Of a stretch of 64,000 nucleotides of DNA, positions 3,951 through 25,240 are shown piece after piece; position 1 is the stretch's first letter, and each line of letters starts with the position of its first letter. The DNA comes from Eubacteriales bacterium mix99 (GTDB taxonomy: Bacteria; Bacillota; Clostridia; Caldicoprobacterales; DTU083). The notes beneath the pieces were generated by a model. That model did not search any database, was not told where the DNA came from, and was given only the letters and a program-made list of their open reading frames with translations. Position numbers and translations under genes: made by a program. The stretch spans positions 1,086,500 to 1,150,499 of the forward strand of contig CP121690.1 in assembly GCA_038396605.1 (NCBI GenBank), given 5' to 3'.

Positions 3951-4044
3951 CGGAAGGGAAAAAGCACGGCAATGCGGAATATATGGCAGCCCGTTATACC
4001 TGTCCCTGGTCACACCCCCTATCGTCCGTAGAGTTCCGGTGTGG

Positions 4045-4285
4045 CGATATGGCAGGTCTTCTGACTCCGGATCCTGAATTTTTCAACCCTTCCCGGCAAA
4101 AGCCAGTGGATTGTTTGAAAAATCTCCCCGATACAGCGGCGGGACCGTGCAGGAATTTCACCTGCTTCCCTTTTCACCTTTCCCCGGCAGAATGCATGCG
4201 ATCCACCCAATGCAGGAACATGTGATCCATCCGGCAATGCAGCGATGACAGCGATGTCTTCCGGGGTTCGGCACCATATTACCCT
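4045..4285 (-). promoter_or_regulatory. Cobalamin (B12) riboswitch upstream of nrdDG
   Basis: The minus strand carries the conserved blocks of the cobalamin aptamer in order: ATGGTGCCG (about 4277-4269), the B12 box core GTGAAATTCCTGCACGGTCC (near 4163-4144), GCCGCTGTA (4140-4132), CCACTGGC (4109-4102), GGGAAGGG (4095-4088), and the closing AGTCAGAAGACCTGCC (4066-4051). The element lies within the 5' leader of nrdDG, starting about 15 bases after the predicted transcription start. In this family B12 binding usually turns expression off, so the anaerobic reductase would be repressed when cobalamin is plentiful. Confidence 0.9.
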
Positions 4286-21715: not shown

Positions 21716-21774
21716 GGCAGAAAGGATCGGGCTGGAAAGCAGCATGAGGAAGGGCAAAAGGAGATTTGTGGATT

Positions 21775-23625
21775 ATGATGGGGAAACGTCTTTGGAGGAT
21801 TGTTGCCGGCGCAGCCGTGTGGGTTGTGGCAGTCCTGATCCCGCCTGACAGGCAGTGGATCCGGCTTGTTTTGTTTCTGGCAGGCTATGGGATTGTAGGA
21901 TGGGATATCGTTGCAAAGGCTTTAAGAAATATCCGGCATGGCAATATGCTGGATGAAAACTTCCTGATGAGCATTGCCACTATTGGCGCTTTTTTGATCG
22001 GCGAGTATTCTGAAGGCGTGGCAGTCATGGTGTTCTATCAGATCGGCGGATTGTTTCAGGATTATGCGGTGGGGAAATCCCGGAGGTCCATTGCCGATCT
22101 GATGGATATCCGGCCGGATTATGCCAATGTCAGGAAAGGAGAGGAACTGACCCGCGTGGATCCTGATGAAGTCCGGATCGGGGATATTATCGTGGTGAAG
22201 CCGGGGGAGAGGATTCCGCTGGACGGCAATGTTCTGGAGGGAAGTTCCCAGATTGATACTTCCGCACTGACAGGGGAATCCGTGCCCCGGGAGGCAGAAG
22301 CCGGAAGCGGGATTCTGAGCGGCTGCGTCAACCTGAGCGGAGTGCTGACGGTTGAGGTGACCAGGGAATATGAGGAATCCACGGTCAGCAAGATCCTGGA
22401 TCTGGTGGAGAACGCCAGCAGCCGAAAATCCAGGTCGGAGCAGTTCATTACCCGGTTTTCTCAGTACTATACACCTGTTGTAGTGGCTCTTGCCGTGCTT
22501 CTGGCGGTTATTCCGCCTTTCTTTACCGGCTGGCAGACTTTTTCAGGATGGCTGTACCGGGCTCTTTCCTTTCTTGTGATTTCCTGCCCCTGCGCTCTTG
22601 TTCTCTCCATTCCGCTGAGCTTTTTCGGCGGAATCGGCGGCGCTTCCTCCCAGGGGATCCTGATCAAGGGTGGCAATTATCTGGAGGCATTGGCCGGGAC
22701 GGAGATCATGGTTTTTGATAAAACCGGTACCCTGACAAAAGGCGTATTTCACGTCCAGGAGATTCATCCGGCAGGCGTTTCTAAACAGGAACTGCTGGAG
22801 CTGACTGCCTATGCGGAAAGCTATTCAAGTCACCCCATTTCCCTTTCCCTGAAGCAGGCATACGGAAAGGAAATTGACAACTCCCGCATTTCGGATGCGG
22901 AAGAGATTTCCGGACATGGGGTCCGTGCCACAGTGGACGGGAAAAAGATTCTGGCCGGCAATCAGAAGCTGATGGAACAGGAAGGCATCCCGTGTTCGGA
23001 AAACGGAATGACAGGTACAGTGGTCTATGTTGCAGTGGATCAAACCTATATCGGCTGCATACGGATTGCGGATGAGGTGAAGGAGGACTCCGCCAGGACC
23101 ATAAAGGAATTGAAAGCGACCCCCAATATCAGGCGGACGGTCATGCTGACGGGGGATAATGCACAGATCGGCTCCGGAGTCGCAGAGGAGCTTGGGGTGG
23201 ATGAAGTATACTCCGAACTCCTGCCCGCCGATAAAGTGGAGAAGCTGGAAGAGCTGTTTGCTGAAAAATCCCCGAAGGGCAGGCTGGCTTTTGTCGGCGA
23301 CGGTATCAATGACGCTCCTGTCCTGGCCCGGGCGGATATTGGAATTGCCATGGGAGGCCTTGGATCGGATGCGGCCATTGAGGCAGCGGATGTGGTGCTT
23401 ATGACGGATGAGCCTTCCCGGATCATTACGGCGATGAACATTTCAAAGAAAACATTGAAGATAGTAAATCAGAACATTGTCTTTGCCATAGGAATTAAAA
23501 TACTGGTTCTGTTCCTCAGCGCTTTTGGGATTACAACCATGTGGGCGGCCATATTTGCGGATGTTGGCGTGGCAGTTCTGGCTGTACTGAATTCCCTGAG
23601 AGCTTTGAATGTTCGCAATTTATAG
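21775..23625 (+). CDS. cadA: Heavy-metal P1B-type ATPase (Zn/Cd/Pb exporter), without N-terminal metal domain
   Basis: The pump exports divalent heavy metals with ATP hydrolysis. The transmembrane metal site is SCPCAL, the CPC motif of zinc/cadmium P1B-2 pumps. The phosphorylation site is DKTGTLTKG; the hinge is GDGINDAPVLARADIGIAMGG; the actuator loop is TGESVPRE. The nucleotide-binding His is in SSHPISLSL. Around eight membrane segments are visible, the last pair near the C-terminus. Length is 616 residues, short because no HMA domain precedes the first membrane helix. ATG 21775 is chosen from several candidates (TTG 21766, ATG 21778) on the position of AAAAGGAG. Confidence 0.93.
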   Translation: MMGKRLWRIVAGAAVWVVAVLIPPDRQWIRLVLFLAGYGIVGWDIVAKALRNIRHGNMLDENFLMSIATIGAFLIGEYSEGVAVMVFYQIGGLFQDYAVGKSRRSIADLMDIRPDYANVRKGEELTRVDPDEVRIGDIIVVKPGERIPLDGNVLEGSSQIDTSALTGESVPREAEAGSGILSGCVNLSGVLTVEVTREYEESTVSKILDLVENASSRKSRSEQFITRFSQYYTPVVVALAVLLAVIPPFFTGWQTFSGWLYRALSFLVISCPCALVLSIPLSFFGGIGGASSQGILIKGGNYLEALAGTEIMVFDKTGTLTKGVFHVQEIHPAGVSKQELLELTAYAESYSSHPISLSLKQAYGKEIDNSRISDAEEISGHGVRATVDGKKILAGNQKLMEQEGIPCSENGMTGTVVYVAVDQTYIGCIRIADEVKEDSARTIKELKATPNIRRTVMLTGDNAQIGSGVAEELGVDEVYSELLPADKVEKLEELFAEKSPKGRLAFVGDGINDAPVLARADIGIAMGGLGSDAAIEAADVVLMTDEPSRIITAMNISKKTLKIVNQNIVFAIGIKILVLFLSAFGITTMWAAIFADVGVAVLAVLNSLRALNVRNL

Positions 23626-23639
23626 ATTTACAAAAAAAG

Positions 23640-23664
23640 CGGGAATGAAGTGTCCCCATTTTTT
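23640..23664 (+). terminator. Weak terminator-like hairpin after cadA
   Basis: GGGA (23641-23644) and TCCC (23653-23656) form a short stem, followed by CA and a run of six T residues. The 4-bp stem makes this only a candidate. Confidence 0.35.
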
Positions 23665-23673
23665 CGGAAGGTA

Positions 23674-23701
23674 TTGCATAATAAGAAATTTCTGATATAA
23701 T
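23674..23701 (+). promoter_or_regulatory. Sigma-A type promoter of the candidate small RNA
   Basis: TTGCAT (23674-23679) and TATAAT (23696-23701) are 16 bases apart. The start expected near 23707 coincides with the first base pairs of the RNA structure described next. Confidence 0.55.
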
Positions 23702-23705
23702 ATTG

Positions 23706-23810
23706 CAGGTGAGCAGATTGCAGATAAAGCAACAGCTTACGGCAACGTAAAAAGATTACCTGAATATGCAATGAAGGGCTTGGCGGAGTCTTTTATTGCA
23801 TATCTTTTTT
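23706..23810 (+). ncRNA. Candidate structured small RNA of about 105 bases, family not recognised
   Basis: No ORF lies between the promoter at 23674 and the T run at 23805. The sequence folds by inspection into a three-way junction: outer stem CAGGTGA/TTACCTG (23706-23712 and 23756-23762), hairpin TTGC/GCAA (23718-23732), and hairpin TTACG-GCAA-CGTAA (23737-23750) capped by a GNRA-type loop. A 9-bp terminator stem ATATGCAAT/ATTGCATAT (23764-23772, 23795-23803) and six T residues follow. It is convergent with the small membrane protein gene and overlaps its last codons. I compared it mentally with cyclic-di-GMP, purine, preQ1, THF and fluoride riboswitches and found no match. Confidence 0.5.
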
Positions 23811-23975
23811 GTCAATGTCCAATGTAACTTCAGAGGAAATCTCTTTGTCCTTTATCTTTGTTTTGGAATGAAACAGTGTCTTCAGGATTTCCTGCCGATA
23901 GCAGAAACCAAGCAGCATGGCAATACTCCCAATCACAGTAATACACACAACGGCAAAAATGAAATTCAGATTCAC
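23793..23975 (-). CDS. Small membrane protein with one transmembrane helix (60 residues)
   Basis: I do not recognise the family. The GTG start at 23975 has AAGGAG nine bases upstream, which favours it over the longer frame beginning at 24032. The first 24 residues form one hydrophobic helix (FIFAVVCITVIGSIAMLLGF). A charged tail with repeated Lys and Asp/Glu follows (KTKIKDKEISSEVTLDIDKK). The size and layout, and a convergent small RNA overlapping its 3' end, recall type I toxins such as TxpA of Bacillus, but no sequence match can be claimed. It could equally be an ordinary small membrane protein. Confidence 0.5.
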   Translation of the reverse strand: MNLNFIFAVVCITVIGSIAMLLGFCYRQEILKTLFHSKTKIKDKEISSEVTLDIDKKDMQ

Positions 23976-24214
23976 GGGATCACTCTCCTTTGTCCAACGG
24001 TAGGTGGGGAATGGCAAACGCAAGCTGCTCACCTGATGCCATGGTCATTTCTGCTCTTCTATTTTATCATGGATTTGCATAAGTAAATGGGTAAACGCAC
24101 CAATGTTCCTTTATTTGTAATTAATCCACCAGGCTTTTCAAATTTTTAGAGAAGGTATTTTCATACAGATATAGAATTATTGTATAGAACCACCCAATAA
24201 GGGGTTGAGGCGCA

Positions 24215-24981
24215 ATGTGCAAGGTTTTGATTTTGGAAGACAACAGAATTCAGCGGAAAGCACTTTCTGATATCATAAGACAGTGCAGCAGCTTATACCG
24301 GGTGTATGAGGCGGGCCATGTTGCAGAGGCGGTTTCCATTGCGCGAAAAATGCAGATTGATCTTTTTTTGTAGATATCGGCCTGAATCACTCGAAGGGCG
24401 AGTCCGGCCTGAGATTTGCGGAGGAGATCCGGAAAATGGAAAACTATCGGCTGACCTGGATCGTGTTTGTGACGATTCATAAGGAATATATGCTTCCCGC
24501 TTTCCGGAAGGTTCATTGCTATGACTATATTGTAAAGCCGTATGACAAGGCTGAAATCCAAAATATGACAGGGCTTCTGCTGTCCAGGAGCCGGGAAAAA
24601 GGCAATGCTGCGAGAACCCGGAGAAAGTTTATCATTATACCTGTAAAGAATATTCAGGTAAAAATTTTTACGGATGAAATTATTTTTGCGGAAGTATTTC
24701 TCCGGACTTCCGTGATTCATACCATCAATGATTCCTTTGCGATTGATTACTTGTCCCTGAAAAAGCTGAAGTCCATGATAACCGATAAGAATATCCTGCA
24801 AAGCCACAGATCTTATATGGTAAATATATCCTATATCAGCAAGATAGAAAAAAGCAACGATCGCACTTCCTATAGGATCTATTTCTATCAGACAGAGAAG
24901 ACGGCTTTGCTGGGATATAATTACAGAAAGAATGTAATGGATCAATTTCATAAGTTATGCGGGTGGGAAGAAGATGAGTGA
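24215..24981 (+). pseudogene. LytTR-type response regulator interrupted by a one-base frame change
   Basis: The ATG at 24215 opens a receiver domain (KVLILEDNRIQRKALSDII) that runs for 52 codons to TAG 24371-24373. The receiver continues in the -1 frame as VDIGLNHSKGESGLRFAEEIRKM, then VTIHKEYML and the conserved Lys in IVKPYDKAEI. A LytTR DNA-binding domain follows (LQSHRSYMVNISYISKIEK) and ends at TGA 24979-24981. The break lies in C-TTTTTTT-G (T tract 24363-24369), right at the predicted phospho-acceptor Asp; one extra T would restore FFVDIG. The heptamer T-TTT-TTG also fits a -1 ribosomal slippery site. The break could be a pseudogene, a phase-variable tract, programmed frameshifting or a sequencing error. 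Confidence 0.75.
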
Positions 24982-25240
24982 TTCGAAAGTTTTTATCCTG
25001 ATGGTCCTGGAAGTGGGGAGTTTTATGATCCTGTGGAATATATTCAACAGAGATGAATTTTCCTTTCTGCTGCCTGCAGATTCTGTCTGCGCTGTACTCA
25101 GCCTTTTCCTTTATCGATATGCACCATACGGGAGGATGCTTGTTTTTCACAGGCAGGCAAGTTCCGGGATATACTGCCTGTCCAAATCTGATCATCTATA
25201 TGATCGTTGTAAAATGGATCTGGAATTTCAAAATGACTGA
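24974..25240 (+). pseudogene. Stub of a membrane protein coupled to the LytTR regulator, possibly a sensor kinase remnant
   Basis: ATG 24974 overlaps the stop of the regulator gene. It opens a hydrophobic start (VFILMVLEVGSFMILWNIF) typical of the first helix of membrane sensor kinases that partner LytTR regulators. The frame ends after 88 residues. A second frame (25053-25340) holds NLIIYMIVVKWIWNFKMTDF, which also looks like membrane helix sequence, so a frame change may have occurred. No histidine kinase domain follows, and the region runs into the convergent GNAT gene. I infer a decayed or truncated kinase; a genuine small protein cannot be excluded. Confidence 0.35.

Follow-up and report, generated by a model that had tools for sequence, protein, structure and literature searches.

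The small RNA locus and the facing membrane protein gene

The window analysed in this work is a 64,000-nt stretch of DNA corresponding to positions 1,086,500–1,150,499 of the 3.13 Mb genome of Eubacteriales bacterium mix99, which is assembled as a single contig. Within it, between the end of a P-type ATPase operon and the remains of an agr-like gene set, lie a small RNA (sRNA) gene and a gene encoding a 60-residue membrane protein (Table 1). The two genes are convergent, and the sRNA overlaps about 20 nt of the 3' end of the protein gene. The ORFs that precede the P-type ATPase gene resemble, by eye, an ArsR-type regulator and a metal-binding domain. The hairpin that follows the ATPase gene falls below the threshold of the terminator scan, and could end both the ATPase operon on the plus strand and a long small-protein mRNA on the minus strand. 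The whole pair is kept at ~93% identity in the sister genome UBA4874 (G001).

An initial annotation of the region had proposed a promoter, an RNA of about 105 bases overlapping the 3' end of the facing gene, and a single-helix membrane protein with a strong ribosome-binding site. All of these were recovered: the promoter consists of a −35 box, a 16-bp spacer and an extended −10 box, the RNA is more stable than shuffled sequence (z = −4.7), and the protein contains one hydrophobic stretch (Kyte-Doolittle 2.61 over 19 residues) and is preceded by the ribosome-binding site AAAGGAGA. The terminator is also present, though not as the 9-bp hairpin first described; the hairpin spans 23764–23803 with ~17 bp, including G-U pairs, followed by TTTTTT. 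In relatives, TATAAT-like −10 boxes are found upstream of the sRNA. For the small-protein promoter, inspection of the sequence gave a probable −10 box and no clear −35.

After the membrane helix, the protein carries an invariant FCY[K/R]Q motif and then a charged C-terminal tail that is conserved and near charge-balanced (8 K/R vs 7 D/E). Between the window and UBA4874 its gene differs by two synonymous and four non-synonymous changes, giving a pS of 0.05 compared with 0.22 in the neighbouring genes. The excess synonymous constraint that this pair of genomes hints at was not seen in the agr-linked loci described below. An upstream ORF in the window leader is not conserved as such: there it lies in a different frame, whereas UBA4874 has it as an in-frame fusion. 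A peptide-coding role for the sRNA was rejected because UBA4874 interrupts the window's open frame with a stop. As the initial annotation had stated, neither the RNA nor the protein could be placed in a known family: searches of Pfam, NCBIfam, PHROGs, PADLOC and Rfam gave nothing that reached cut-off. Protein families returned sub-threshold chance matches, and Rfam 15 gave no family for the sRNA at its gathering threshold, an SgrS match at 14 bits being noise. A cobalamin riboswitch elsewhere in the window, at 4034–4218 on the minus strand (RF00174, 96 bits), is unrelated.

Table 1. Features of the sRNA and small-protein locus, in window coordinates.
Feature	Position	Strand	Basis
P-type ATPase gene, operon end	21766–23625	+	Pfam
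Hairpin GGGA..TCCC with A-run and T-run at its flanks	23636–23669		Sequence; kept in UBA4874
sRNA promoter: −35 TTGCAT (23674–23679), 16-bp spacer, extended −10 TGATATAAT (23693–23701)	23674–23701	+	Sequence
Antisense-type small RNA, candidate antitoxin, ~105 nt	about 23707–23811	+	Fold z −4.7; E 2.4e-10 with covariance model R1, which includes this sequence
sRNA conserved 5' hairpin (GUGAGC..UUGC / GCAA..GCUUAC)	23709–23740	+	Covariation, 20 loci
Shared element, sRNA copy GTGAGCAGATTGC	23709–23721	+	Sequence comparison, permutation test
sRNA intrinsic terminator, hairpin and TTTTTT, overlapping the facing gene's stop codon	23764–23810	+	Fold, terminator scan, covariation
60-aa membrane protein gene, candidate toxin, GTG start	23793–23975	−	ORF, homologues, pN/pS in agr-linked loci
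Ribosome-binding site AAAGGAGA of the small-protein gene	23984–23991	−	Sequence
Leader hairpin ATGGCA/TGCCAT, shared element in loop	24011–24042	−	Predicted fold; kept in UBA4874
Shared element, mRNA-leader copy GTGAGCAGCTTGC	24020–24032	−	Sequence comparison, permutation test
Probable −10 TAAAAT of the small-protein promoter	24061–24066	−	Sequence; aligns with TACAAT of relatives
AgrA-like LytTR response regulator, frameshift at 7-T run 24363–24369	24215–24981	+	Intact in UBA4874
AgrC-like histidine kinase remnant	24974–25240	+	By eye like the N-terminus of the L087 kinase; no Pfam match

Relatives of the pair among Clostridia

Homologues of the small protein with 59–66% identity were found in Clostridiaceae, a family other than that of the window organism. 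Clade A includes C. carboxidivorans, C. drakei, C. muellerianum, C. liquoris, C. tunisiense, C. rhizosphaerae and others, and more distant homologues form clade B (C. guangxiense, C. hydrogenum) and clade C (isolate BL-3 and others). With weak matches set aside, a profile search located homologous pairs in 21 of 207 Clostridiaceae genomes, and among 391 genomes drawn across the class the small protein occurred only in Clostridiaceae and in the genus of the window organism. Because this genus alone within its family has the pair, the distribution suggests horizontal arrival there.

A second and more distant group, D, was reached via weak profile matches and consists of proteins of about 55–65 aa (for example MGGYIVIAAMVCVTIIGIVGIFAMLAYLKEKAILKYKNSSKVGDNEISITVDDNKDKNSKN). 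A single genome can have as many as 11 matches to it, some of them containing internal stops. Some genomes carry multiple copies of the family, and members of groups C and D are present on viral contigs; group D small proteins are carried on L150–L152. Searches of viral, plasmid and phage collections with a clade A protein returned no match. A weak relative (33% identity) lies on an Alkaliphilus plasmid (NZ_CP058558.1:50203-50382).

The sRNA has a conserved two-hairpin fold and accompanies the protein gene

A homologous RNA was present on the opposite strand downstream of the small-protein homologues examined, with a common architecture of 5' hairpin, variable linker and terminator. Across 20 loci, 95.3% of the pair cells in this two-hairpin fold are paired, 13 pairs have changed on both sides, and the covariation score is 0.400 compared with 0.274 ± 0.015 for shuffles, slid structures scoring about 0.1 at most, in an alignment fitted to the two-hairpin structure and hence somewhat favouring it. 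The three-way junction originally drawn for this RNA is specific to the window, where it is one of several near-equal folds; it is not the minimum free energy fold in UBA4874, and both covariation and the folds of relatives rule it out as the conserved structure. The covariation analysis suggested by the initial annotation has in this way upheld a fold for the RNA, through compensating base pairs, but not the one proposed. A terminator-like hairpin on the sRNA strand was found in 22 of 22 loci, whereas on the mRNA strand the terminator scan found nothing at the overlap in all 22. An mRNA-strand terminator is located 100–220 nt further on in some loci only.

A covariance model (R1), built from 14 homologous loci including the window sequence, was searched against the 207 Clostridiaceae genomes and gave 13 matches at E < 0.01, each of them at a small-protein gene. 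Most of these matches were themselves in the model, so the informative part of the search is the absence of orphan sRNA copies. Weak matches (L111–L113 and L116) were unrelated sequence and not homologous loci. Good conservation of the RNA in genomes lacking the small protein, which the initial annotation had named as evidence against a pair, was not found, because all 13 matches sit at a small-protein gene and the weaker ones are unrelated. The sRNA could in principle act in trans, its placement beside the small gene being incidental, and its own promoter, 5' hairpin and terminator would suit such a role. This reading, already disfavoured, is very improbable given that every credible sRNA match in the 207 genomes and a further 61 sits at a small-protein gene.

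An element of the sRNA 5' end recurs in the mRNA leader

The first ~13–16 nt of the sRNA recur in the leader of the small-protein mRNA, 24–41 nt upstream of the start codon. This shared element is a new observation that the initial annotation had missed. In the window it reads GTGAGCAG(A)TTGC, with the leader copy inverted relative to the sRNA copy on the DNA. The element varies between loci and does so in step at both sites within a locus: L040 has GTGAGTGTTTTACA/ATGAGTGTTTTACA, L063 has GTGGGCAGATTGCA at both sites and L067 has ..TTGTAAA at both. Group D shows the same anatomy with a wholly different element, either AAAAGAAGCCGTTGCGGT in the sRNA and AAAAGAGGTCGTTGCGGT in the leader, or AGAAAAGCTGTTATGG in both. 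Over 37 loci, identity between the two copies of the same locus averaged 13.4 of 16 positions, compared with 9.5 for permuted leaders and 11.6 for leaders permuted within groups, and 0 of 20,000 permutations reached the observed value; the 14 group D loci in this test were picked because the element was visible, and related loci are non-independent. In many other group D loci the scan did not find the element.

Simple pairing of the sRNA 5' hairpin with the leader does not account for the element in co-folds, which gave no net binding (no gain over self-folding), as the sRNA folds preferentially on itself. Of the candidate partners, the complement of the sRNA 5' end paired most strongly and consistently with the leader element, at −16 to −28 kcal/mol, a value that expresses the sequence identity as an energy; the sRNA hairpin's 3' arm gave −6 to −18 kcal/mol. 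Only this 3' arm forms a degenerate direct repeat with the leader element, and the full-length repeats are inverted. For the complement of the sRNA 5' end to exist as RNA, the mRNA must continue across the sRNA gene. No consistent pairing site for the element was found inside the coding region.

The repeats might instead be a site for an RNA- or DNA-binding protein, or for a recombinase acting by inversion, within a pair that is otherwise real. In favour of this, besides the lack of net sRNA-leader binding in co-folds, the core TGAG is kept where it forms only G-U wobbles with the sRNA's own 3' arm. The element is, however, wholly different between groups (GTGAGCGGATTGC, AGAAGCCGTTGCGG, AGAAAAGCTGTTATGG) and yet matched within each locus, and no constant host motif emerges. 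As for a recombinase, inspection of the copies by eye revealed none in inverted orientation, and the similarity of paralogues runs past the repeats, which also led us to reject them as the ends of a mobile element. We regard a protein or recombinase site as unlikely.

The leader is predicted to hide the ribosome-binding site in most relatives

Type I toxin mRNAs are described as typically having their Shine-Dalgarno (SD) sequence occluded in the primary transcript, and some of them also as forming 5'-3' interactions (PMC6733600). For 12 clade B and clade C loci, folding predicts that the ribosome-binding site is paired with a probability of 0.84–1.00, by a leader stem of about 9–13 bp that holds the shared element in its loop. 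These stems are built from differing sequences, such as ACCTCTTTTCC/GGAAAAGAGGT and TTACCTTCTCCC/GGGAGGAGGTAA. The group D leader is likewise predicted to hide the ribosome-binding site (GCCACCTCC/GGAGGTGGC), and in clade A the shared element GGATTGCACCT is itself predicted to pair partly with it. In the window the site is predicted to be only half paired (0.45).

One clade is linked to agr

In staphylococci, RNAIII and delta-toxin fill the niche of an agr-driven, membrane-active small protein. In seven named Clostridium genomes (L086–L092) the small gene is divergent from a gene for an AgrA-like LytTR response regulator, which is followed by an AgrC-like GHKL histidine kinase gene. In six of the seven (L086–L091) an AgrB homologue and a typical AgrD ORF (..GEPEIPE..) follow, completing an agrBDCA set; the AgrB homologue of L087 matches Pfam PF04647 with an E-value of 1e-27, and L092 has no listed AgrB. 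Within these loci pN is well below pS in the small-protein gene, which by this measure of its codons is under purifying selection, and it evolves at a pace equal to that of agrA. About 150 bp upstream of the start codon, ahead of the small-protein promoter, the seven loci share a conserved block, ATTAATgACAAaAATt.Gg..TTTtATG, a candidate AgrA/LytTR site.

These features raise an alternative in which the small protein is an output or modulator of agr, switched on by AgrA at the divergent promoter, which is placed like the P3/RNAIII side of staphylococcal agr, with the sRNA setting its timing or threshold. The divergent placement, the conserved upstream block and the shared pace of evolution all count in favour of such an output. 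Against it, agr was not adjacent in the clade B, clade C and group D loci examined, copies are multiple in some genomes and those of groups C and D reach viral contigs, and in the window the pair persists while its agr neighbours have decayed. Moreover, for the small number of clostridial agr systems under study, RNAIII is reported to be undescribed (PMC8748961). We consider this alternative unlikely.

In the window itself the agr copy is degenerate, with a frameshifted response regulator gene and a kinase remnant. The run at the frameshift has 7 T in the window and 8 T in UBA4874, a difference that is possibly an assembly error, phase variation or decay. The broken neighbours, together with the weak pairing of the ribosome-binding site in the window leader, could mean that the window copy of the pair is a decaying, non-functional remnant. 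This is improbable, as the promoter, sRNA hairpins, shared element, ribosome-binding site and ORF are intact in two species, and the few substitutions in the gene stand against a pS of 0.22 in its neighbours.

A probable antisense-regulated small protein gene of the type I kind

Type I toxin-antitoxin pairs are hard to find, as the toxins are tiny and the antitoxins are RNA. In our view the locus is, with a probability of roughly 0.6, a gene for a small membrane protein under antisense control that functions in the manner of a type I toxin-antitoxin module and belongs to an undescribed family. The small hydrophobic protein gene and overlapping antisense RNA gene by which type I systems are generally recognized are both present in sequence and conserved. 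The case for a toxin-antitoxin module is one of anatomy and distribution. The type I proposal of the initial annotation gains from the conservation of the pair as a unit, the predicted occlusion of the ribosome-binding site in relatives, the multiple copies and the viral contigs, while the likeness to TxpA/RatA that it invoked is one of geometry only. Weighing against this reading are the charge-balanced tail, unlike the lysine-rich tails of C. difficile type I toxins, the half-paired ribosome-binding site of the window, and the steady agr linkage with agrA-like evolution, which an agr output would explain equally well.

Under the type I reading, the protein would be made only when its mRNA escapes control, and over-production would be expected to disturb the membrane. 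The ribosome-binding site would be folded away in the leader of most relatives, and weakly so in the window. The sRNA, expressed from its own putative promoter, would have complementarity to the mRNA 3' end as well as to whatever transcript continues across its gene; repression would proceed by duplex formation, probably with decay by RNase III. Because the leader repeats the opening ~16 nt of the sRNA, a read-through mRNA would carry a 3' segment able to pair with its own leader, for which sRNA and leader may compete. As co-folds gave no net binding between sRNA and leader, we propose that a 5'-3' panhandle of the mRNA, disrupted by the sRNA, could serve as the switch. The panhandle would depend on putative mRNA read-through, a point against it: the scan found no mRNA-strand terminator at the overlap, and a downstream one in some loci only. 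In the agr-linked relatives quorum sensing may drive the small gene, given its divergence from agrA; the window has decayed agr genes beside the pair, which alone survives. A broader proposal is more tentative and on balance not the favoured outcome: that an undescribed superfamily of small membrane proteins under antisense control in Clostridiaceae is set by one structural rule and not by sequence, the first ~16 nt of the antitoxin RNA being copied into the leader loop of the toxin mRNA as a panhandle switch in which sRNA and leader vie for one mRNA 3' segment, with one clade placed in agr loci as a toxin-antitoxin-like pair under cell-density control.

Among known systems, TxpA/RatA, BsrG/SR4 and YonT/SR6 of Bacillus are likewise convergent, with an sRNA overlapping the 3' end of a small membrane toxin gene. 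Compared through family models alone, TxpA/RatA differs in that the present pair has no Pfam, NCBIfam or Rfam 15 match at cut-off. To our knowledge the shared 5' element is not known from any of these three pairs. SR6 has a similar length of ~100 nt (PMC5848175). The par locus of pAD1 (RNA I/RNA II), of the Fst/Ldr family, is similar in layout, with a convergent mRNA and sRNA, a small single-helix membrane protein, complementarity in the terminator region, a leader structure hiding the SD, as predicted for most relatives here, and a second repeated element tying the 5' regions (PMC7472228). Fst/Ldr toxins are of ~33 aa with a PXXXG(C) motif and a conserved tryptophan (PMC7472228), whereas the present protein has 60 aa with FCYKQ, and its alignment contains neither the PXXXG motif nor a conserved tryptophan. 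The terminator of Fst/Ldr is bidirectional, in contrast to the sRNA-strand terminator seen here in all 22 loci with none on the mRNA strand at the overlap, and its repeats are direct, in contrast to full-length inverted repeats without net sRNA-leader binding in co-folds. The present pair gave no Rfam or Pfam match.

The RCd-type pairs of C. difficile (CD0977.1-RCd11 and others) share a clostridial host, convergence, multiple copies and prophage-linked small membrane proteins (PMC6563280, PMC7699646). Set apart by their descriptions, those toxins have 34–53 aa and lysine-rich tails, compared with the near charge-balanced 60 aa here, and several are tied to prophages or CRISPR arrays, where one clade of the present family is tied to agr. 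With hok/Sok and AapA/IsoA the pair shares an occluded SD, here a predicted one, and possible pairing of mRNA 5' and 3' ends (PMC6733600). In those systems the anti-SD lies in the 3' end, whereas here the 3' segment, bounded by the start of the sRNA, would pair with an element in the loop that separates anti-SD from SD.

The conserved RNA/protein pair with a covarying fold, the rule joining the two transcripts, the wider multi-copy family and the agr-linked clade are a real advance on the initial annotation. The structural rule (an sRNA 5' end repeated in the leader, an occluded SD and a convergent terminator) offers a way to find more pairs. If the panhandle proposal is true, it would represent a separate mode of translational control by antisense RNA. 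With the agr-linked clade one could ask by experiment whether a membrane-active small protein is driven by quorum sensing in clostridia.

Partial and outlying copies

A protein at L139, in a large-genome Clostridiaceae species, has the same C-terminal signature (YKQ..SELSVDID) but no obvious facing sRNA. Genome G320 contains two partial copies (L069 and L082): in one the sRNA is intact and the leader and protein N-terminus are replaced, and in the other the protein is intact and the sRNA promoter region is replaced. Near a group D locus, a group II intron (RF02005) is present at L163:87-321.
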